A stretch of 64,000 nucleotides of DNA. It comes from Anaerolinea thermolimosa. Its GTDB lineage: Bacteria; Chloroflexota; Anaerolineae; Anaerolineales; Anaerolineaceae. The stretch lies in NCBI RefSeq assembly GCF_001050195.2, contig NZ_DF967965.1, positions 1,156,597 to 1,220,596 of the forward strand, in the 5' to 3' direction. The notes below the pieces were generated by a model. It was not told the DNA's origin. It saw only the letters and a program-made list of their open reading frames with translations, and did no database searches. Each line of letters opens with the position of its first letter. Position 1 is the stretch's first letter. A program made the translations under genes and the position numbers. Shown here in pieces: positions 2,031 to 10,704 of the stretch.

Positions 2031-3131
2031 TTAAATGACCTCCAGGTAATTGGCATCAGGAAGCCTGGGGAAAGGTGCATGAGGTTCTGCCTGGTACCAG
2101 AAGGCTGTGGTGGCGATATCATCCTGGCGGGGGAGATAACGACCTTTCCCTTCAAACGGAGAGCGCCAACCCAGGTCTTGAATGGTGGCACGCAGGTCTT
2201 TGTCAAAACGAATGGGGTCCATAATGTGCCAGCGATACAAGCCGAAACGCATGGTGCTTCTGTACAAACCGTCAGGTTGAATCACCTGTGGCATACCCAG
2301 AAATGCTGTGGAATACACTCCATACTGTCCACGTGGATGCTCGAAGCACCATGCGCCACCGAAATAATCTTCTGTGCCGGTACCGCAGTAGGTGGGGAAA
2401 TTGGTATCGCCATCGATGAAGAATTTAACTTCTCCTTCACCCCACCAGCCATCGTTGTTAACCCCGATGGCCATATAAGTGCCCACGTAATGACCTTTTC
2501 CTTGCACTCCATCCAGGATGGTATGGTCGGTCATATAAGCCAACGGGTTAGAACGCCGCCACTGGGCATGAAAATAAGCCATAGTTTCAGGGACGGTTGT
2601 GAGGGTGTAGTCAATCTGATAGAAGAAACCGGGTACCGGATCAGGAGTGAGGTTTTCGATGGTGATGCGGGCATGTTCTCGGAAAGGCATTTCCCAGTAA
2701 CTGTTGAAACCGCCGGCAGGGTTAACCGCGATGGGCAAAGAATTTACATTACAACGTACTCCCCAGCCGTTGCAAAAAAAATCACCGAGGGGGGTCTCAA
2801 CCGATGGCGTTGGTTCGTGATCCCAGTACATGCGGAGAACCAACCGCCTCCATGCTGCTGGATCGACGGTGATCCAGATGTGTTGAATAACACCTGGACC
2901 CTGAATGTCTGCCAGATCGGTCACTTCGCGGCCCTTGAGGGTGATGCAGGGGCGAACTTTCCAGCCCTGGCCCAGCTCGCGGGCGGGTCCATCGGCCAGG
3001 CCTTCAACCGACATGCCCCCTTTACCTTTTTCTCCGCGGGGGTTTTCTGCACTGATCGAGCGGTAGACAGCCTGAGAAAGCTCAGGCAGGTTGCCGAGAT
3101 GCAACCCGAGGCCATTGAAAGGAATCTGCAT
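2031..3131 (-). CDS. GH172 (DUF2961) glycoside hydrolase family protein
   Basis: A 366-residue cytoplasmic protein, with no signal peptide, of the DUF2961 family, now glycoside hydrolase family 172. Characterised members act on D-fructofuranosyl or D-arabinofuranosyl glycosides. The diagnostic elements are WGEGEVKFFIDGD (about 230-242, E232 and E234) and GTGTEDYFGGAW (about 250-261, E254), which hold the conserved glutamates. A GGAGG site 5 bases before ATG supports the start. Its 3' end faces the terminator of the preceding rightward gene. The 5' side abuts the left end of the tRNA-Val element by about 50 bases, so the element insertion may have replaced its original upstream region. Substrate unknown. 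Confidence 0.85.
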   Translation of the reverse strand: MQIPFNGLGLHLGNLPELSQAVYRSISAENPRGEKGKGGMSVEGLADGPARELGQGWKVRPCITLKGREVTDLADIQGPGVIQHIWITVDPAAWRRLVLRMYWDHEPTPSVETPLGDFFCNGWGVRCNVNSLPIAVNPAGGFNSYWEMPFREHARITIENLTPDPVPGFFYQIDYTLTTVPETMAYFHAQWRRSNPLAYMTDHTILDGVQGKGHYVGTYMAIGVNNDGWWGEGEVKFFIDGDTNFPTYCGTGTEDYFGGAWCFEHPRGQYGVYSTAFLGMPQVIQPDGLYRSTMRFGLYRWHIMDPIRFDKDLRATIQDLGWRSPFEGKGRYLPRQDDIATTAFWYQAEPHAPFPRLPDANYLEVI

Positions 3132-3182
3132 TGTGCCTCCAAAGCAGGAAAATGATGGGTGAAAGTAAGGAAAGGGGAGAGA

Positions 3183-3230
3183 GTGGGCGGAACAGGACTC
3201 GAACCTGCGACCTCATCTTTGTAAGAGATG
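3183..3230. repeat. attL: left 48-bp att repeat (truncated tRNA-Val 3' half)
   Basis: Identical to 9802-9849. On the minus strand it reads from the anticodon stem-loop to the tRNA 3' end. Beyond 3230 the sequence no longer pairs as a tRNA 5' half: the D-arm is lost and the acceptor is mismatched. It is therefore a tRNA fragment and not a second gene. Confidence 0.9.
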
Positions 3231-3657
3231 GCCGAAACACGGCTCACCATACCGCCACAGGTGGGGGTCATGACCGCGCCGACCGCCACATATAGCCTGT
3301 TTTTAATCTTCCGTCAGAGCGCCCACAAGGAGAAGATGTGTTCGGAGCGTGAATCTCGCGGGCTGTTTTCCATTGTAAGCCGCAGGCTAAAAAAGGCAAG
3401 AAATTTTAAGGTTTCTGTAAGGTGAGCCGTGATTGCGGCGAGGCTGGCGACGATGGTGGGCACGGCAGGAGGGCGTCCATCAAAAACCGTGCAAATTTGC
3501 ATGGTTTCTAAAGATACTGCCGCCGACTTATTGAACGTCTCTCCGCGTCTTGTGGCTACCGTCAAAGCCGTAGAGCGCGAAGCGCGCAGGTTTGGCGGGC
3601 CCGGCTGGCCAGGCGGATTAGAACGCTTGTCCGCGCCACAGGTGGGGGGGTTGTGAT
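3231..3657. other. Element left-end region without an intact gene; 15-bp direct repeats
   Basis: This 427-base stretch between attL and the first element gene holds no convincing intact gene. It contains a decayed HTH-like coding fragment at 3423-3656 (listed separately). A 15-bp direct repeat CGCCACAGGTGGGGG occurs at 3253-3267 and 3634-3648. Short repeats near an att site can be recombinase arm sites or the scar of an internal rearrangement. I cannot tell which. Confidence 0.4.
3423..3656 (+). pseudogene. Decayed ParB-like HTH fragment
   Basis: From 3426 the frame reads AVIAARLATM, then later AADLLNVSPRLVATVKAVER. This resembles the helix-turn-helix part of ParB-like and phage chromosome-partition proteins, where a run like RAVIAAxLA precedes AAxLLNVSxRxV. 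The codon just before is TGA (3423-3425) where the family usually has Arg, which suggests a CGA-to-TGA change. The upstream reading in the same frame is not ParB-like. No long N-terminal domain is present. It could also be translated from GTG 3429 as a 75-residue remnant. The assignment rests on a short motif only. Confidence 0.35.
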
Positions 3658-4548
3658 TTATCCCTGCCAGTTCAGGATGGCAGGCTCACGCTTGCGTTTG
3701 AAGCGTTTGAGGGCGGTGTTGCGGTCACGCTGAAAGTTGGTTTCATGCTGATAAGCCCACTGGGGATAAAGCGAATTCCACTTTTGCATGGCTTCACGAC
3801 CGTTCAAACCTTCATGCTGGGCCGCAAAAAGGGCAAGTTGGCGGTGCTTTTCGGAAAGCGAGCGGTTGCGCTGGCGGCTTGCGGCGATGCCATAAGCACG
3901 CATGAGCAAGCGCTGGTATTCGCCAAATGCCTTTGCCAATTCACGGGGGGGACAGGTCAGGGTTACGGTGATGGTGATGGCGCTGGCAAGGGGGTAGTCC
4001 AAATTCCAGTTGCCTTTCATGGTGAACTTTTGCATAACTGGCTTTTGGCCTGTCAAAATAAAGGTGCGGGCGCTTTCGGGTGTCCAGCCGTAGGTTTTGG
4101 CAAATTCATCAGCCAGTTTTTGAACGAACGCAGAGAGTGCGGCGGTATCGAACGGGTAATCGGAAGCCCGGCAGACTTCGGCTAGAAATTCGCTTTCCCT
4201 GCCGGTTTGTGCCAGTTTGCCTTGAAAGATGGTGTCACGCAGCCGGACAAAATCAATGTGCTGGCAGGCTTGTTGAACCTGAAAATCAATCAGGGTTGCC
4301 AGCGTTTCATCCGTGCTGGTTTCGGTCAGGCGGGGCGGTTGTTTCGGCTTGTAAAGGCGCAGGGCAAGCCTGGCGGCGTCCACAAGGCTGTAAAACTGGT
4401 TTTCGCGTTCCTCGCGCTTCAAATCGGGGTCAAGGTAAGCGCCAACGTAGCCTTCGGCTTTGAGAGCGTCCCAAAGGTAATCATCCAGTTGCAGGCGTAA
4501 TTCGGCTTCAAGGGCGGTGCGTAATTCGGCTTCGGTTTTTAGTATCAC
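3658..4548 (-). CDS. Unknown element protein, 296 residues
   Basis: I do not recognise this family. The protein is soluble, begins with GTG 4548 preceded by AGGGAG at a good distance, and ends against the left-end region. The N-terminal 50 residues are acidic and helical, and the C-terminal 60 residues are rich in Arg, Lys and Gln, suggesting nucleic-acid contact. A segment near 175-215 (FTMKGNWNLDYPL followed by ITITVTLTCPPRELAKAF) looks like a beta-rich core. It is transcribed divergently from the small RHH-like gene. The 60-base spacer at 4549-4609 is AT-rich and contains a GTGT...ACAC inverted pair (about 4572-4590) that could hold divergent control. It may be an element-specific replication or maintenance protein, which is a guess. 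Confidence 0.6.
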   Translation of the reverse strand: MILKTEAELRTALEAELRLQLDDYLWDALKAEGYVGAYLDPDLKREERENQFYSLVDAARLALRLYKPKQPPRLTETSTDETLATLIDFQVQQACQHIDFVRLRDTIFQGKLAQTGRESEFLAEVCRASDYPFDTAALSAFVQKLADEFAKTYGWTPESARTFILTGQKPVMQKFTMKGNWNLDYPLASAITITVTLTCPPRELAKAFGEYQRLLMRAYGIAASRQRNRSLSEKHRQLALFAAQHEGLNGREAMQKWNSLYPQWAYQHETNFQRDRNTALKRFKRKREPAILNWQG

Positions 4549-4609
4549 TTTAACGCTCCCTAAATTGATAGTGTACGATTATTGTAACACATTTGCGGAG
4601 TGTTTGAGG

Positions 4610-4798
4610 ATGAAAAAGGAAAAAGTGACTCGAACTTTTGTCGTTCATTTGCGGTTGAGCCGGCCGGAAGCGGAAACTTTGAAACGCCTTACTAGGCACT
4701 TGGGCATGACGCAATCGGCAGTGGTGCGCTGGCTGGTGACCCGTGAGGCGGGGCGGTTGGAAGGCACGAAAAGGGGGGAAAATGGCAACGGCAATTAA
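4610..4798 (+). CDS. Small RHH/CopG-like DNA-binding protein
   Basis: A 62-residue protein. The segment VVHLRLSRPEAETLKRL, a short turn, then MTQSAVVRWLVTREAG has the strand-helix-helix pattern of ribbon-helix-helix (CopG/MetJ) repressors. The extended strand lies at about 8-16 and helices at 18-29 and 33-45. Such proteins dimerise and bind operators, often controlling copy number or maintenance of plasmids and integrative elements. The start is ATG 4610, with GGAG 9 bases upstream. It is the first gene of the rightward replication set and divergent from the 296-residue unknown, so it could regulate that intergenic region. Its 3' end overlaps the next gene by 17 bases. Confidence 0.6.
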   Translation: MKKEKVTRTFVVHLRLSRPEAETLKRLTRHLGMTQSAVVRWLVTREAGRLEGTKRGENGNGN

Positions 4799-5204
4799 TA
4801 AAACAAGGCCCGCCGTGCCCGCGGCGGGCCAAGGCACGACACGCGTGGTTGATGCGCGTCAAACCTATTATAGCGCGGACGGCAAGCCTGTGGCGCGCCT
4901 TTGTGGGCGCACTTTGAAGAAAAAGGCGCGGGCTTCAAGCCACATGCTACGCCGGCCGCCTGCTTGGGCGATTGACCTGCAAATCCTTGAAGCCGCAAGG
5001 CGTGATGGTGCGACACAAGTTGAGGTGCTGGATGTCGAAACCAGGCGGATTTATCGAGCCTCGATTGACGCCTTCGCCTTGCACGGCTTCAAACTCAACA
5101 GGGGGCACGGCGACCAAATCGGGCTGGCTTTGTCCCACTGGAAAGTAGAAGCGCGGGGGGCGGCGCAGTTGGCGCTGTTTGGAGTGCGAGATGGGCGACC
5201 TTGA
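4782..5204 (+). CDS. Unknown element protein, 140 residues
   Basis: Not recognised. ATG 4782 is preceded by AGGGGGG at 4772-4778, which decides the start. The N-terminal 60 residues are basic and look disordered (many Lys, Arg, Ala). The middle has a small folded region with WAIDLQILEAARRDG and VEVLDVETRRIYRAS, which resembles a short beta-hairpin/helix module found in some phage accessory proteins. The end, QLALFGVRDGRP, overlaps the helicase start by 14 bases. The tight packing implies translation coupled to the helicase, so a replication-accessory role is plausible but unproven. Confidence 0.55.
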   Translation: MATAINKTRPAVPAAGQGTTRVVDARQTYYSADGKPVARLCGRTLKKKARASSHMLRRPPAWAIDLQILEAARRDGATQVEVLDVETRRIYRASIDAFALHGFKLNRGHGDQIGLALSHWKVEARGAAQLALFGVRDGRP

Positions 5205-6216
5205 CGAGATGCTAAATCAAGCCAGCCAGGCGGCGCAGGGTATGCCGGCCATCATCAACGGCAAAGACCTGATGGCCATGACCTTTCCCGAACCCGCCTG
5301 GGTTGTGGATAACATCATTCCTGCGGGAATGACAATCCTAGCCGGGCCGCCCAAAAAGGGTAAATCGTGGTTAGCGCTGGAATTGGCGCTTGCGGTTTGC
5401 AATGGCGGCTATTTTTTGGGCCGCAAGGCGCAAGCCGGACGGGTGCTTTTCTGCGCGCTTGAAGATAGCCCGAGGCGATTCAAAGACCGCCTGCAAAAAC
5501 AGGGCTGGACAGCGGCGGCACTGGAAAACCTGGACGTCATCTTTGGACGCGACTTCCAAAGGCTTTTCGGAAAGCAAAACGGCCTGGCGGCTTTTACCGC
5601 ATTTATAGCCGCTGGGGATTATTCGCTTGTGATAGTGGACACAATCAGCCGGGCATTCCACATTCGGGATTGGAACGATGCGGCGCAAGTTACAAGTATC
5701 CTATCGCCGCTTCAAGAAGCGACATCAGAGAGCGGCGCTAACCTGCTTTGCCTAGACCATCACAAAAAACGTAATGGATTTGACCCAAACCCAATCGAAG
5801 ACATCATGGGCAGTGTTTCCAAGAGTGGCGTGGCGGATACCATTCTAGGCCTTTACAAAGAGAGCGGAAAGCCAGGCGCAAAACTCGCCGTTGTGGGTAG
5901 AGATGTTGAGGAGTGTACCATAGACTTGCGCTTTGACGCATTCGCCGGGTGTTGGGTGGAGACCGCAAGGAACGATAGCTTAACAGATGCGCAAAATGAG
6001 ACCATACGAACCATTGAGCGTTTAGGTGGCTTTGCTACTCTTGCGGATTTAGTAAATGCTACGAATCGCAATCGGGGAACTTTGTATAGGGAGTTGGTTA
6101 ACCTTCAAGATAAGGGGCTTGTAACATACGATGGTAAGTGCTGGAAAACCACACTTAAAGCAACAGACGCAACAGACGCAACAGACGCAACAGACGCAAC
6201 AGACGCAACAGACTAA
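5191..6216 (+). CDS. RecA-like (RepA/AAA_25-type) replicative helicase
   Basis: A 341-residue P-loop ATPase resembling the hexameric RepA helicases of RSF1010-type plasmids and phage AAA_25 proteins. Walker A is GPPKKGKS (52-59), a catalytic glutamate lies in CALEDS (about 91), Walker B is SLVIVDT (145-151), and LCLDHHKK is a sensor-like segment. A winged-helix-like C-terminal part (about 265-320) follows. The tail is six Ala-Thr-Asp repeats encoded by a 9-bp tandem repeat, which is a likely disordered extension and doubles as an iteron-like array. ATG 5191 with GGAG 6 bases upstream was preferred over the upstream TTG. It probably unwinds the element origin for the adjacent primase after excision. 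Confidence 0.75.
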   Translation: MGDLDEMLNQASQAAQGMPAIINGKDLMAMTFPEPAWVVDNIIPAGMTILAGPPKKGKSWLALELALAVCNGGYFLGRKAQAGRVLFCALEDSPRRFKDRLQKQGWTAAALENLDVIFGRDFQRLFGKQNGLAAFTAFIAAGDYSLVIVDTISRAFHIRDWNDAAQVTSILSPLQEATSESGANLLCLDHHKKRNGFDPNPIEDIMGSVSKSGVADTILGLYKESGKPGAKLAVVGRDVEECTIDLRFDAFAGCWVETARNDSLTDAQNETIRTIERLGGFATLADLVNATNRNRGTLYRELVNLQDKGLVTYDGKCWKTTLKATDATDATDATDATDATD

Positions 6217-6275
6217 TGATTTTTGTTGCCTTTGTTGCCTTTGTTGCCTTTGTTGCGTCTTTTCTAATGGCAACA
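6160..6275. repeat. Opposed arrays of a 9-bp repeat (iteron-like)
   Basis: Six perfect tandem copies of GCAACAGAC fill 6160-6213. After the AT-rich spacer 6214-6221 come four copies of TTTGTTGCC or its variant TTTGTTGCG (6222-6257). On the other strand these read GCAACAAAG/GCAACAAAC, the same core in inverted orientation. A single extra GCAACA follows at 6270-6275. The first array is translated as the tail of the helicase and the second is noncoding. The two arrays could pair as an interrupted hairpin with 6-7 bp helices in 9-base register. Position between helicase and primase suits an origin, but a transcript-level structure is also possible. Confidence 0.75.
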
Positions 6276-6286
6276 CGGAGCGAACC

Positions 6287-7342
6287 ATGAGCAATTTTGA
6301 TGCGGACTACATTCAGCGCACGTTCGACTTACTCTCTCTTGTGGAGCGAGATACCCACGTGCGCAAGGTTGGCGCAAACTGGTATGCTGGGCCGTGTCCG
6401 TTCTGCGGCGGTACTGACCGCTTCGTCTTGAAGCAGACCGCTGACGGCTGGCGCTGGTTGTGCCGCCACTGCACGGATGGCCAGTACCAGGATGCCATCG
6501 ATTACATTCAGCGGCGGGACGGGCTGGACTTCAAAGAGGCGCTGGAACGGCTGGGCGGCGGCAAACCTTCACCCTTGCGGGCTGAACCGGAGCGGACGGC
6601 TGAACCAGAACCGCAAGGGCAAACGCAGGAAACACGGGAACGGCTGAAACAAATCGCCTTCGATGCGTCCAGGCGGATTGACCTTGACGATGACCCACTG
6701 GCGCAGACCGTCAGAAATTACCTGCACGGGCGGGGATTACTACCGCCGACCTGGCAGTTTGCACTGCTGGGAGCGGCGGAAGTTTACGACCCGAAGGCGG
6801 GGCGCAAACGCCCGGCGGCGGTCATACCCTACTTCAATCGTCGCCTGGAGGTGCGGGCGGTAAAGTTTCGTTTTGTGGATGGCGCTTCGGATGGCCTGCG
6901 CTATATCGCCGCAAAGGGGAGCGTGAACGATTTATACTGGCTACCTGAGGAGGTTGGGCGCTTTGAACGCCTGCTTGTGGTGGAAGGCGAGCTGAATTAC
7001 CTGAGCCTGGCGCAAACGTTACCGGAGCTTGACCTGATAAGCACGGGCAGCCAGTCCCTCACGGCGGAGATGCAGGAAGTACTGCAAAAAGTGAGCAGGC
7101 GATACCGGCGGGTGTTTGTGTGGCTGGATGACGGCGACCGTTCGGCAAAACTGGCATTGCTTTTGAGGGGCAAAGCGTTTAAATCGCCGCTGATGGACGG
7201 GCAGAAATGGGACGCAAACCGGCTGCTGCAAGCAGACATGTTGAACGAATTTGTAGAAAAGGCTTTCAGCGTTCCCTGTCACGGCTGGCGGTTGAGCGAT
7301 TGGCGGGCGCAGTACGAACCGCAGGGGGTGATGCATGGCTGA
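6287..7342 (+). CDS. Primase with CHC2-type zinc finger and Toprim domain
   Basis: A 351-residue DnaG-like primase. The N-terminal zinc finger has C37, C40, C59 and C62 (PCPFCGG ... WLCRHC). A linker rich in Pro and Glu (about 85-115) leads to a Toprim-like catalytic region, with LLVVEGELNYLSL (Glu near 232) and VFVWLDDGD (acidic triplet near 281-284). It would lay down RNA primers on the element's unwound origin. ATG 6287 has GGAG 6 bases upstream; the longer upstream frame only reads through the 9-bp repeat. Its stop overlaps the start of the nuclease-like gene by 8 bases. Shorter than chromosomal DnaG because it lacks the C-terminal helicase-binding domain. Confidence 0.8.
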   Translation: MSNFDADYIQRTFDLLSLVERDTHVRKVGANWYAGPCPFCGGTDRFVLKQTADGWRWLCRHCTDGQYQDAIDYIQRRDGLDFKEALERLGGGKPSPLRAEPERTAEPEPQGQTQETRERLKQIAFDASRRIDLDDDPLAQTVRNYLHGRGLLPPTWQFALLGAAEVYDPKAGRKRPAAVIPYFNRRLEVRAVKFRFVDGASDGLRYIAAKGSVNDLYWLPEEVGRFERLLVVEGELNYLSLAQTLPELDLISTGSQSLTAEMQEVLQKVSRRYRRVFVWLDDGDRSAKLALLLRGKAFKSPLMDGQKWDANRLLQADMLNEFVEKAFSVPCHGWRLSDWRAQYEPQGVMHG

Positions 7343-7682
7343 CACGACCTGGAAACAAACCGAACGGGCGATAGCCGGGCGGCTGAACGGCAAGCGTCAA
7401 GGTGCAGTTGGGCGCACAGGGGCGGATGTGGTGAATGATTGGCTTGCGGTTGAGGTCAAGCACAGGCGCAGGCTGCCGCAGTGGCTGAAAGACGCACTGA
7501 CGCAGGCCCGCAGCGGCGCAGGCGACCGGTTGCCGATTGTGGTACTGCACGAGGCAGGGCAGAGGCACAGCGCCGACCTGGTACTTGTGCGCCTTGCGGA
7601 TTTTCAAGATTGGTTTGGCGAGGTGACGCATGACCCTTACCTGTTGGCGGAGGCAGGAAACGAGGCAAAATGGCAGAGATAA
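7335..7682 (+). CDS. Putative PD-(D/E)xK nuclease (resolvase-like)
   Basis: A 115-residue protein. It starts with WKQTERAIAGRLNGKRQG, then GADVVNDWLAVEVKHR, in which a conserved Asp is followed by the ExK signature of PD-(D/E)xK nucleases. A hydrophobic strand (LPIVVLHE) comes next. The size and motif spacing resemble archaeal Hjc and small phage Holliday-junction resolvases or VRR-type nucleases. It could resolve junctions formed when the element replicates or recombines. ATG 7335 has AGGGGGTG just upstream, and the gene overlaps both neighbours (8 and 13 bases), so it belongs to the replication operon. The family assignment rests on the motif alone. Confidence 0.6.
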   Translation: MADTTWKQTERAIAGRLNGKRQGAVGRTGADVVNDWLAVEVKHRRRLPQWLKDALTQARSGAGDRLPIVVLHEAGQRHSADLVLVRLADFQDWFGEVTHDPYLLAEAGNEAKWQR

Positions 7683-8074
7683 CATCCACACAACGGCGCT
7701 TCCTGGCCGCGTTGCTGGTGAGTAGAACGGTATCCGAAGCCATCCGCAGGGCGAACGTGTCCGAACGTTCGGCCTGGCGCTGGATGAAGGATGAAGCCTT
7801 CAGGGCGGCGCTGGAAGAGGCCGAAGGCCAGACGCTGGAAGATGTAATGCGCCGGTTGATTGGAATGCAGGAGCAGGCGCTGAACGCCCTTCAGGCCATT
7901 CTAGGCGACCCGCAGGCCAGGCATGGCGATAAACTGCGCGCTATCGATATGGCGCTATCTCACTTCCTGCGCCTACGGGAAGCCATCACGCTTGAAGAGC
8001 GGCTGAATGAACTGGAACGGAGGATAGAGGAGGTACGGAATGAACAACATGGCAGGCCGGTTGAAGCGGATTGA
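7670..8074 (+). CDS. Small HTH protein, terminase-small-subunit-like or regulatory
   Basis: A 134-residue protein with an N-terminal helix-turn-helix: FLAALLVSRTVSEAIRRAN then SERSAWRWMKDEAFRAAL (about 10-48). This pattern is common in phage terminase small subunits and related DNA-binding proteins that recognise packaging or origin sites. The rest is helical, and the C-terminal end (about 105-130) is a charged coiled-coil segment. No terminase large subunit or capsid gene exists in the element, so a packaging role is not supported here unless it borrows from a helper phage. Origin recognition or regulation are equally possible. It overlaps both neighbouring genes. Confidence 0.5.
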   Translation: MAEITSTQRRFLAALLVSRTVSEAIRRANVSERSAWRWMKDEAFRAALEEAEGQTLEDVMRRLIGMQEQALNALQAILGDPQARHGDKLRAIDMALSHFLRLREAITLEERLNELERRIEEVRNEQHGRPVEAD

Positions 8075-8249
8075 ACGGGCGATAAGGCCGGTAAAATGCC
8101 CGGAGTGCGGCGGCCCGGCGACAAAATACGATAATCTGAAGGTTGAAATCCACTGGCGCACCTGCGATGACCCGCCGATGAAGCCGGAATATTGCCCGAA
8201 GTGCGGGCGGCAGCTTGTGTTTGTGGTGGAGTGGCCGGATAAACGGTAA
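8040..8249 (+). CDS. Small zinc-ribbon protein, 69 residues
   Basis: Two CPxCG knuckles, CPECGG near residue 20 and CPKCGR near 56, flank a 30-residue insert. This is the pattern of a rubredoxin-like zinc ribbon. GAGGAGGT lies 6 bases before ATG 8040, and the gene overlaps the HTH gene by 35 bases. No enzymatic domain is present. It could be a nucleic-acid-binding or protein-docking accessory of the replication set. I do not recognise a named family. Confidence 0.6.
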   Translation: MNNMAGRLKRIERAIRPVKCPECGGPATKYDNLKVEIHWRTCDDPPMKPEYCPKCGRQLVFVVEWPDKR

Positions 8250-8474
8250 TAAAATGCCCGTAGAACGCGCCAGGATGCCCGTAGAGCGATTTTTCCACGG
8301 CAAGGCATAAAAACACCCTTTGCCCGGCAGAACAGGCCTTACAGGGCGTTTTGTGCCCTTTGCCCAACACAATGACTATTATGTTGTGCATACTGGCCGA
8401 CAGGGCAAAAAAAGCCCTGCCACTTGCGGCAAGGCTGAACAATCCGGGCGTGGTGGATGATTCGGTATCGGATA
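8250..8474. other. Noncoding region with short repeats and hairpins
   Basis: A 14-base repeat ATGCCCGTAGARCG occurs at 8254-8267 and 8275-8288, exactly 21 bp apart (two helical turns). Two small hairpins with AGGGC/GCCCT stems and 7-base loops sit at 8343-8359 and 8402-8418, with an inverted pair CACAA...TTGTG at 8368-8388 between them. No gene is evident. The spacing suggests protein-binding sites (recombinase arms, replication initiator or repressor), and the hairpins could stop convergent transcripts. Confidence 0.45.
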
Positions 8475-8780
8475 CTATGCGTCTTCTACGGTAACACCAG
8501 GAAAGGCTTCTTCAAGCGATACCCGCTTTTCGGGCAATTCTTCAAACATTTCTGCGGCTTCTTGCGGGGTGAGCGGTTGCAGCGCGTCTCTTTCCCCCTG
8601 CCAGCAGGTGAGGCGGATGGAGAAGTAGTTGCCTTTGGGGGTGCGGTACAGGAAGGTATTTCGTCCGTGCCGTTCAAAGTTGTGCCCATCCCAATAATCA
8701 TCGCCTGCCAGCAAGGTTGACTTGCTGACGTCATACCGCTTGCCGTTCTTGACTTCGGCCCATTCTTTAGGGGGTTTCAT
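8475..8780 (-). CDS. Unknown element protein, 101 residues
   Basis: Not recognised. The start ATG (8778-8780) has AGGAG on the minus strand 9 bases upstream. The protein seems to be a small mixed alpha/beta fold with many aromatic residues (DDYWDGHNFERHGRN, then FLYRTPKGNYFSIRLTCW), ending in an acidic helical tail. The segment order suggests a regulatory or inhibitor-type protein, but nothing decisive is visible. It is 28 bases downstream of the integrase gene on the same strand, so the two may be cotranscribed. That makes an excisionase-like or recombination-directionality role worth considering, without direct evidence. Confidence 0.5.
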   Translation of the reverse strand: MKPPKEWAEVKNGKRYDVSKSTLLAGDDYWDGHNFERHGRNTFLYRTPKGNYFSIRLTCWQGERDALQPLTPQEAAEMFEELPEKRVSLEEAFPGVTVEDA

Positions 8781-8807
8781 GGTTTTACTCCTTTCGGTCT
8801 ATGCCTT

Positions 8808-9746
8808 TTATCGGGAACTGTGCCCGGATTGTTTGAGGTTATCCACAGGGCTGGCGTGCCGGTGGGCTTCCAGCAGGTCAGTGTCCAGCCATTGAATATA
8901 ACGGCGGGTAGTTTCCAGGTTGGAATGGCCCAGGATGGTTTGCAGACTGACCAAATCCATGCCGTTTTGCAGGCTGAGCGTGGCAAAGGTGCGGCGCAGG
9001 GCGTGCGCGGAGAAGGCCACTCCCGCCTTTTTCGAGAGCCGCCGCAGGAGCGATTGCAGGCCGTGGGGAGTGAAGGGGCTGCCGCTTTCGGTCTGGAACA
9101 GCGGGGCGTCCGCGTCCTGACTGGGGCAGGTGCGCAGGTAAGCCAGCAGGGCGCGCCTTGTGGTTGCGCCAATCACGGCCAGCCGGTCTTTGCGGCCTTT
9201 GCCTTGCCGCACCCTGACCGCGCCGGTCTGTAAATCCACGTCTGCCCGTTGGAGGTTGCAGACTTCCTGACGGCGCAGGCCGCTGTCCACCAGGAACAAG
9301 ACCAGCGCCTTCTCCCGTAAGGCACACACGTTCAGCACCTTTTGCACCTGTTCGGCGGTGAGGAACGATAGCCGCTTCTGGCGCACTTTGGGCATGTCAA
9401 AGGTGACCGGCTGGGGAAGATAGCCTTCCCTGTGCCAGAAGCGGAGAAGCGTCCGAATGCGGCTGGCTACGGTGTGGGTGGTGGTGCTTTCGGCGTCCTG
9501 ATACAACGCCAGGAACTGGCGCACGTGGCGGGCGGTCACTTCATGAGGGGCGGTCATGCCTTGACCTTCCAGCCAGGAGATAAATTTACCCAGCGTGTCC
9601 GTGTAATTGGCGAGGGTAGTTTTCGAACACTGCATGGCCTGGCGGCTGAGGATGAAATCCGTCCAGGCGTCACGCAGGGCGACAGAGGCGATGTTAAAGG
9701 ATTGGGTTTCGAGGAGATGAGGTCGTTGTTTGGATGGGTGAGACAT
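8808..9746 (-). CDS. Tyrosine recombinase (integrase) of the tRNA-Val element
   Basis: A 312-residue site-specific recombinase of the XerC/D and phage integrase type. An N-terminal SAM-like core-binding domain (about 20-110) precedes the catalytic domain. Its residues are R158 (DSGLRRQE), K186 (GKGRKDR), H248 and R251 (HALRRTF), H274 (LGHSNLETT) and the nucleophile Y283. All are present, so it should be active. It should cut and rejoin the 48-bp att repeats to integrate into or excise from tRNA-Val. ATG 9746 is used; ATG 9758 and TTG 9779 are in frame upstream but fall within a perfect inverted repeat (9750-9777). No Shine-Dalgarno is evident for any of them. Confidence 0.85.
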   Translation of the reverse strand: MSHPSKQRPHLLETQSFNIASVALRDAWTDFILSRQAMQCSKTTLANYTDTLGKFISWLEGQGMTAPHEVTARHVRQFLALYQDAESTTTHTVASRIRTLLRFWHREGYLPQPVTFDMPKVRQKRLSFLTAEQVQKVLNVCALREKALVLFLVDSGLRRQEVCNLQRADVDLQTGAVRVRQGKGRKDRLAVIGATTRRALLAYLRTCPSQDADAPLFQTESGSPFTPHGLQSLLRRLSKKAGVAFSAHALRRTFATLSLQNGMDLVSLQTILGHSNLETTRRYIQWLDTDLLEAHRHASPVDNLKQSGHSSR

Positions 9747-9749
9747 AAA

Positions 9750-9777
9750 GACCGCCATATATGGGGTTATGGCGGTC
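9750..9777 (-). promoter_or_regulatory. Perfect inverted repeat at the integrase start
   Basis: GACCGCCAT (9750-9758) and ATGGCGGTC (9769-9777) form a 9-bp perfect stem with a 10-base loop, ending 3 bases before integrase ATG 9746. It could be an operator for an element repressor or an RNA hairpin limiting integrase translation. It contains two possible upstream start codons. Confidence 0.5.
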
Positions 9778-9801
9778 AAATGGTGGGGATGAACCGTACC
9801 T

Positions 9802-9849
9802 GTGGGCGGAACAGGACTCGAACCTGCGACCTCATCTTTGTAAGAGATG
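9802..9849. repeat. attR: right 48-bp att repeat within intact tRNA-Val
   Basis: Identical to 3183-3230. It covers the tRNA-Val sequence from the anticodon stem-loop through the 3' end, so the element supplies the 3' half that keeps the tRNA gene intact after integration. Confidence 0.9.
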
Positions 9850-9876
9850 CGCTCTAACCGACTGAGCTATCCGCCC
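9803..9876 (-). tRNA. tRNA-Val (anticodon TAC)
   Basis: A 74-base cloverleaf with acceptor stem GGGCGGA/TCCGCCC and discriminator A. The anticodon loop CTTACAA gives TAC (codon GTA), and the T-arm contains GGTTCGAGTCC. CCA is not encoded. It is the integration target of the neighbouring element and remains complete. Confidence 0.95.
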
Positions 9877-9942
9877 GGGTAGGGAAATTATACATGAAAA
9901 TTCATGAAGTATGTTAAACTGGCGAAAAAAGGAGGTGGTATT

Positions 9943-10704
9943 ATGCGCTTCATTCGATATAGTCTAGGGGATGAGTTACCGCGGTACGGTTGGATTTATC
10001 AGGATCATGTTGGATTGGTCGAGGGAGATATTTTTAATGAATACCGTCGGCTGGAGGCCGGGATGCCTCTGGAGCGAGTTAAGTTGTTTGCCCCTGTTCG
10101 GCCGGGAAAAATCATTGCAGTTGGAAGGAATTATGTGGAACATGCCAGAGAACGGGGTGCTGAGGTACCGGAAATCCCTTTGATCTTTCTAAAACCTCCC
10201 TCGTCGGTCGTTGGGCCTGGAGAAGCAATTTTATTACCCCCTCAATCTAAACAGGTGGACCATGAAAGTGAACTGGCCGTGGTGATTGGGAAAAGAGGAA
10301 AATGGATTGCAGCGGAGGATGCGCTGGATTACGTTTTCGGGTATACCGCGGCGAACGATGTTACTGCCAGAGATCTCCAGAAGGTGGATGGTCAGTGGAC
10401 GAGGGCTAAAGGATTTGATACCTTTTGTCCTCTTGGTCCATGGATTGAAACCGAACTCGACCCCGCCGATGTACTGATCCATTGCCGGGTTAATGGTGAG
10501 TTGCGACAGGTCGGTTCAACGAGGGATATGGTGTTTTCGGTGCAGCAGTTAATTGCGTTTATCTCTTCAGTGATGACTCTGGAACCTGGAGACGTGATTT
10601 TAACGGGAACACCAGCTGGAATTGCCCCGTTGAAAGTCGGAGATGTGGTCGAGGTGGAAATCGAAGGGATTGGAGTATTATCGAACCCGGTGAAAGCACT
10701 CTAA
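9943..10704 (+). CDS. Fumarylacetoacetate hydrolase (FAH) family protein
   Basis: A 253-residue member of the FAH superfamily: hydrolases, decarboxylases and isomerases acting on 2-oxo or diketo acids through a divalent metal. The metal ligands are visible as E108 and E110 (HESELAVV) and D139 (AANDVTARD), with the partner lysine K156 ([14 protein letters not shown]). The family signature [14 protein letters not shown] is near the C-terminus. The start is ATG 9943 with GGAGGTGG 5-6 bases upstream. Likely substrates are oxaloacetate, acylpyruvates or related ring-cleavage products, but family members cannot be separated by sequence at this level. It stands alone between the tRNA-Val gene and the convergent sortase-like gene. 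Confidence 0.85.

Follow-up and report, generated by a model that had tools for sequence, protein, structure and literature searches.

Two opposed arrays of a 9-bp repeat at the end of a helicase gene probably constitute a self-encoded replication origin, the iterons of which would be read by the winged helix of that same helicase. The arrays were analyzed in a 64-kb stretch of DNA, referred to below as the window, and in homologous loci. The feature is general: dozens of related elements carry facing arrays at the corresponding position. An origin whose binding sites form part of the helicase gene had been proposed in the initial annotation, and from sequence comparison it is the best-supported reading, on account of a homologue with altered surroundings (L290), of recurrence across the family, and of the concordance between recognition helix and repeat word in one clade.

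Arrays, helicase and host element

As previously described, the repeats lie between the helicase, which ends at 6216, and the primase, which starts at 6287. Six perfect units, an 8-base spacer, four inverted units and a stray GCAACA were all recovered, both in the sequence itself and by repeat scans. The relevant features, in window coordinates, are as follows.

3183–3230, minus strand: left attachment repeat of 48 bp, with the same sequence as 9802–9849; ARAGORN places a tRNA-Val at 3185–3256
5179–6216, plus strand: RepA-type (AAA_25) helicase, winged helix in the C-terminal part, (ATD)x6 as the final 18 residues
5983–6156, plus strand: winged-helix codons (residues about 269–326), the proposed reader of the repeats
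6160–6213, plus strand: forward array, six GCAACAGAC units, 100% identical, at 9-bp pitch and in frame
6214–6221, no strand: spacer TAATGATT, 8 bp, which holds the helicase stop TAA (6214–6216)
6222–6257, minus strand: opposed array, TTTGTTGCC three times plus TTTGTTGCG; four TGTTGC-core units at 9-bp pitch, non-coding
6270–6275, plus strand: extra forward GCAACA core, 3' of the opposed array, as likewise found in L032/L033 and L290
6287–7342, plus strand: DNA primase with a zinc-ribbon, DnaG-like N-terminal region, matched by Pfam and PHROGs (NCBIfam dnaG match partial and under the cut-off)
8808–9779, minus strand: tyrosine integrase, from profile matches
9802–9849, minus strand: right attachment repeat, inside the tRNA-Val at 9802–9876, the only copy called by Rfam

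Forward sites start at 6160, 6169, 6178, 6187, 6196 and 6205, reverse sites at 6224, 6233, 6242 and 6251, and the last forward site at 6270. The words GCAACA and TGTTGC occur 42 times in the whole 64 kb, and 11 of these 42 fall within 6150–6290. The two arrays are also the top two tandem repeats of the window, with TRF scores of 108 and 70 (next 48). The forward array is coding, as had been stated: the open reading frame at 5179–6216 ends in (Ala-Thr-Asp)x6 and supplies the tail of the helicase.

The AAA_25 (RecA-type) domain of the helicase was recognized by Pfam with an E-value of 4e-30 (105 bits, against a cut-off of 27). In an AF2 model built from 24 aligned sequences (mean pLDDT 83), the ATPase was confident, and the C-terminal part was predicted as a helix-helix-helix-wing with confident helices at residues 270–281, 288–295 and 299–311. 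The best PDB matches of this model, as determined by Foldseek, were those of RSF1010 RepA (1nlf/1olo), and the helicase would act as a hexamer. The tail of Ala-Thr-Asp repeats (residues 327–345) had pLDDT values below 50. Since this repeat-coded tail is predicted to be disordered, the repeats are probably unimportant as a peptide.

The surrounding DNA had been described as an integrative element, and this was upheld by the tyrosine integrase together with an exact 48-bp direct repeat, corresponding to the 3' part of tRNA-Val, that flanks the element at 3183–3230 and 9802–9849. An Rfam scan of positions 3000–10000 returned nothing but tRNA, and no RepC-like match was obtained among the ten element ORFs scanned. 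A Holliday-junction-resolvase-like protein (7335–7682, plus strand; PHROG RusA-like, E 4e-8) is located inside the replication module. The gene at 7670–8074 (plus strand) gave a weak match to a phage terminase small subunit (PHROG E 2e-4) and no such NCBIfam match, while a small protein at 4517–4798 (plus strand) showed weak VirD1-like and regulator-like matches. From its gene content, a terminase-like gene combined with integrase, primase and helicase, a phage-satellite-like element would fit.

Iteron-like arrays can serve partition, incompatibility or packaging roles. That the arrays are such a site instead of an origin is very improbable here: the weak small-terminase-like gene would speak for packaging, whereas no partition gene was recognized among the ten element ORFs scanned, and the array stays with the helicase gene in elements whose neighbouring genes differ.

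Recurrence at the helicase gene end

AAA_25 homologues were collected from 400 genomes of the same phylum and from viral contigs. An over-represented word on either strand was sought in an 820-bp search window at the helicase 3' end, with the expectation taken from a second-order Markov model and Bonferroni correction applied; 549 windows elsewhere in the same loci served as controls. From the 110 loci taken, two without a tblastn match (L021, L029) and three that end too early (L008, L043, L069) were set aside, leaving 105, which include the window's own copy and become 97 after removal of near-duplicates. Of 48 further loci (L248–L269, L280–L305), 40 were without a helicase match and were not used. 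At least 80 additional loci (L114–L193) match a pattern of four GCAACA cores at 9-bp pitch and stand outside all counts. A search of the genome contigs with a single protein gave no match.

A repeated motif was found at the helicase 3' end in 82/105 loci and 32/549 controls at E<1e-2, in 75/105 and 14/549 at E<1e-3, and in 61/105 and 4/549 at E<1e-5. Among non-redundant loci, the motif was present at E<1e-3 in 68/97 (14/27 from phylum genomes and 54/70 from viral contigs). The word itself is element-specific and differs from element to element. Thirty of the 105 loci had no motif at E<1e-3, among them L036, whose helicase is 54% identical and carries a winged helix. Three homologues that stop short of the winged helix (L011, L019, L050) showed no motif even at E<1e-2.

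Both orientations were present in 65 of the 68 non-redundant arrays; L038, L042 and L065 (3/68) carry a single orientation without opposed copies. Relative to the helicase stop, 33 of the 68 arrays lie wholly after it, 22 wholly inside the open reading frame and 13 across it. It is therefore the DNA, and not the peptide, that is kept. A function of the peptide was rejected on these positions and on the predicted disorder of the tail.

Between same-strand neighbours up to 40 bp apart, 9 bp was the commonest spacing (164/295), also where the neighbours are non-coding (74/167). Counted per element, it was the modal same-strand spacing in 41/65, and in 20/42 when non-coding neighbours only were considered. 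The pitch is thus shared by non-coding arrays and is not a codon effect. Tandem runs of two, three, four, five and six units occurred 69, 45, 8, 5 and 2 times, respectively. A link between six units and a hexamer was dropped, as runs of six are this rare. The inner gap between the arrays was AT-richer than its locus in 56/67 arrays, a count uncorrected for intergenic position; in the window the spacer is just 8 bp.

Plain slippage of a low-complexity tail, without any function, would account for the perfect forward units of the window and for a unit number that varies (6, 5 and 6 forward units in the window, L032 and L290). It is nevertheless extremely improbable, given the recurrence at one place (75/105 loci against 14/549 controls), the opposed copies, the same pitch in non-coding arrays, and the fact that all sites of an element change together. 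Slippage alone was rejected on these four points.

The closest comparisons come from two viral contigs, L032 and L033 (87% identical), and from L290, an Anaerolineae MAG. In L032/L033, five forward units are coding and the spacers vary; the opposed arrays have three and four units, with a forward core after each. The primase frame that follows the array in L032 (1723–1956) and in L033 is just 77 residues long and is succeeded by other genes, so that the array persists without an intact primase. The next long ORFs of L032 resemble phage structural genes, as judged from reading their sequences.

The helicase of L290 is 61% identical over 314 residues. Its array has the core GCAACA in the order six forward, three reverse and two forward, with forward cores at 9-bp pitch. 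The helicase stop falls inside the array, three forward units being coding and three lying past the stop. No primase was found next to the helicase when the ORFs were read by eye, on a contig that ends 575 bp past the helicase. Inverted 9-mers in homologues with differing coding sequence had been suggested as a check of the origin reading, and L290 does keep the inverted 9-mers while their coding status has changed. The array is thus retained through changes in coding status and in the downstream gene. The coupling of helicase to primase through a transcript hairpin, put forward initially as the alternative, is disfavoured by L290, where the array has no primase following it.

Several single loci deserve separate mention. 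In L012 and L015, past the helicase stop, the non-coding array DNA looks almost identical letter by letter and the adjacent helicase coding DNA has clearly diverged, which would fit either a stronger constraint on the array or its exchange. The array of L059 is unusually far away, about 480 bp past the stop, and its first copy is opposite in orientation to that of its clade mates. In L073, a strong repeat, CCGTTAACA in six copies, was observed about 1.2 kb past the helicase end and was the best of the 549 control windows; it is either a displaced origin or another site. In the Clostridiales homologue L293 (region 3547), a 9-bp unit, CTGTCCTAA, includes the helicase stop, and opposed copies follow after about 80 bp.

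Annotated homologues were also examined (11 among the 80 matches listed). In the natural plasmid pATHE01 of C. bescii (8.3 kb), the winged helix is directly followed by six in-frame 9-bp units, with opposed copies further on, and no other stretch of the plasmid ranks higher for repeats. Its Prim-Pol/AAA_25/HTH protein was the sole replication-like protein among the five of seven annotated CDS scanned with Pfam. The GC skew of pATHE01 showed no clear turning point at the array. Judged from host and size, pATHE01 would be the plasmid pBAL of PMC3643907. In a Tsukamurella plasmid, an opposed array was found right after the helicase stop, and in an S. suis mobile element three units of the 9-mer type occur in the helicase tail. 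L277 also has such repeats in the tail, but its top repeat window lies elsewhere. No array was found at the helicase end of the homologues from phage genomes (L270, L272–L275; 5/5), nor at the repA end of IncQ RepA plasmids with a separate repC (L278, L279; 2/2).

Proteins that bind iterons often autoregulate, and in the window the sites lie between helicase and primase. These two points would fit an operator through which the winged helix regulates the helicase-primase operon, with the origin elsewhere, a reading that is quite unlikely. The array is situated where the helicase gene ends and not at its promoter, and it stays in L290 without a following primase. It also stays at the 3' end where helicase and primase form one gene, as Prim-Pol/AAA_25 in pATHE01 and L276 and as Toprim/AAA_25 in L047.

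Putative recognition of the repeats

Across all pairs, no co-variation of motif with winged-helix identity was found once ATPase identity was accounted for (partial −0.03, p 0.76). Shared words tended to occur only in pairs with a winged-helix identity of at least 0.5, and the motif words evidently change fast, as far as sequence comparison goes. In a post hoc comparison of 46 cluster representatives, motifs resembled each other more in the 18 pairs whose recognition helices are similar (difference 1.34, permutation p 0.0005). For the same 46 representatives overall, the relation between motif and recognition helix was weak (rho 0.072, p 0.06), and that between motif and ATPase was about as strong (rho 0.117, p 0.044).

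In one clade of nine elements, selected post hoc, a residue of the recognition helix concords with the word in 9/9 cases. Gln-Arg in the helix goes with CTTA[CT]G (L046, L051, L054, L055 and L059, the last on the other strand). In L047, L052, L053 and L071, the Arg position holds Asn or Gln, and the word is CTT[AT]CA. Contacts of Arg with guanine and of Asn or Gln with adenine are textbook pairings. The sites within each element changed together. On a tree computed without the winged helix, the label needs three changes (two to three in bootstrap replicates), and strongly supported branches alone force one. The ATPase of L047 is closer to those of L046 and L055, which belong to the CTTA class, than to that of L071, yet its word is common to L071.

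These observations bear on a further explanation, in which the opposed copies are read as a structure: either a transcript hairpin acting in termination, attenuation or helicase-primase coupling, or a DNA stem-loop or cruciform origin of the kind put forward for pRN1, a plasmid from archaea. The presence of both orientations in 65/68 arrays is in line with it, and the window transcript can fold into a very stable structure (−51.9 kcal/mol, z −7.0). When the sites were held fixed, the real spacers folded better than shuffled ones, with mean z values of −2.38 (core ± 2) and −1.75 (core ± 4) and of −0.77 for controls; spacer folding at site ± 4 differed from the control with p 0.007. This excess points to some structural complementarity, or may partly stem from degenerate site copies missed by the mask. 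In addition, a stem-loop is required in pRN1, where it lies 3' of a replication gene that also encodes a winged helix at the C-terminus (PMC4234260).

Against a structure-read element stand the arrays without opposed copies (L038, L042, L065; 3/68), the L290 array without a following primase, and a flank identity that is equal between same-strand pairs (0.51–0.52) and opposed pairs (0.52). The dependence of the motif on the recognition helix in one clade likewise argues against it, and protein-read sites are therefore favoured over a hairpin, which is unlikely. The origin with protein-read iterons is thus retained, and by the same comparisons the winged helix would be the domain that binds the repeats. 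Weighing against this origin reading are the absent global relation between motif and winged helix, a relation with the ATPase that is about as strong as that with the recognition helix, the 30 loci without a motif, the phage homologues without an array, the GC skew of pATHE01 and the folding of the spacers.

Known systems and proposed mechanism

RSF1010 and other IncQ plasmids (RepA, RepB', RepC) use the same helicase family and fold as the window helicase. They differ in having a separate RepC, which binds the IncQ iterons, in the lack of a winged-helix extension in the RepA stretches examined, and in having no array at the repA end (L278, L279). In the lambda origin, too, binding sites lie within the coding part of an initiator gene; lambda O is, to our knowledge, not a helicase and is unrelated. 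In contrast to lambda, the array of the AAA_25 family may lie in or outside the gene.

A functional likeness was found in the rep-ori of PICI/SaPI elements, with a self-encoded helicase initiator and two iteron sets (PMC7581432, PMC6092414). According to the same sources, the origins of PICI/SaPI and SCCmec lie directly 3' of the helicase gene and are bound by its C-terminal domain; for SaPI Rep and SCCmec Cch2, this domain reads iterons (PMC7581432). The window has this type of placement, with a repeat region (6160–6275) immediately 3' of, and overlapping, the end of the helicase gene at 6216. However, SaPI Rep and SCC Cch/Cch2 are ATPases of the DUF927 or Primase_Cterm/D5 type, whereas the window helicase is a RecA-type RepA/AAA_25 protein; Pfam reported AAA_25 only in it, and neither DUF927 nor D5/Primase_Cterm. 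The arrays of the AAA_25 family also differ in lying often inside the gene and in their 9-bp pitch. Because the ATPase is from another family, the element was not filed as a PICI replicon. The best reading, by analogy, is that the window system would work like a PICI/SaPI rep-ori on an unrelated RecA-type helicase.

In plasmid pRN1, too, the origin lies 3' of a replication gene that encodes a winged helix at its C-terminus (PMC4234260), but pRN1 combines an SF3 helicase with a stem-loop without iterons, whereas the window has a RecA-type ATPase and iteron-like arrays. Fusions of an AEP primase, a RepA/DnaB helicase and a winged helix (PrimQH and relatives) bring together the same domain set in integrated elements, and for these the winged helix has been suggested to recognize the origin (PMC5862659); the word 'iteron' is absent from the main text of that source. 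Compared with PrimQH-type fusions, the arrays are the new part. No description of facing 9-bp arrays at AAA_25 helicase gene ends was found in open-licence PMC papers.

In the proposed mechanism, the array site would be the origin, and the opposed arrays would serve the replication of the integrative element of roughly 6.6 kb. The winged-helix domain, the codons of which immediately precede the array, would let the RepA-type hexameric helicase of the element bind the repeat cores. Helicase rings would be assembled or loaded with the help of the tandem units, spaced at 9 bp in two facing sets, and the excised circle would next be copied by host enzymes and the primase from the adjacent gene; the events would presumably follow in this order. 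The C-terminal tail, being predicted as disordered, would be free to vary, which may be why the array can spread into coding sequence, so that part of the origin would come to be written inside the initiator gene.

A broader proposal is held only tentatively, namely that RepA-type winged-helix helicases with facing iterons of 9-bp pitch, at or inside the gene end and with a word rewritten along with the recognition helix, represent a widespread class of origins. With the same reserve, several ideas are joined to it. A 9-bp step turns each site by about 50 degrees, near one sixth of a turn, and the successive winged helices of a hexamer could perhaps each read one unit. Two facing arrays could conceivably place two rings head to head. 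Such elements might also form a large collection of natural replicons that are compatible with one another, and the code relating helix to word could be read from them.

If the origin reading is right, sequence alone would suffice to locate the origins of a large class of integrative elements, phages and plasmids about which little is known, at the 3' terminus of the AAA_25-winged-helix gene. The PICI/SaPI logic would be extended by convergence to an unrelated helicase fold, and many orthogonal small replicons would become available for hosts with few vectors. The family would also offer a natural series of recognition helices paired with DNA words, and the facing arrays of 9-bp pitch would give a concrete and testable hint of how self-loading by a RecA-type helicase could work.
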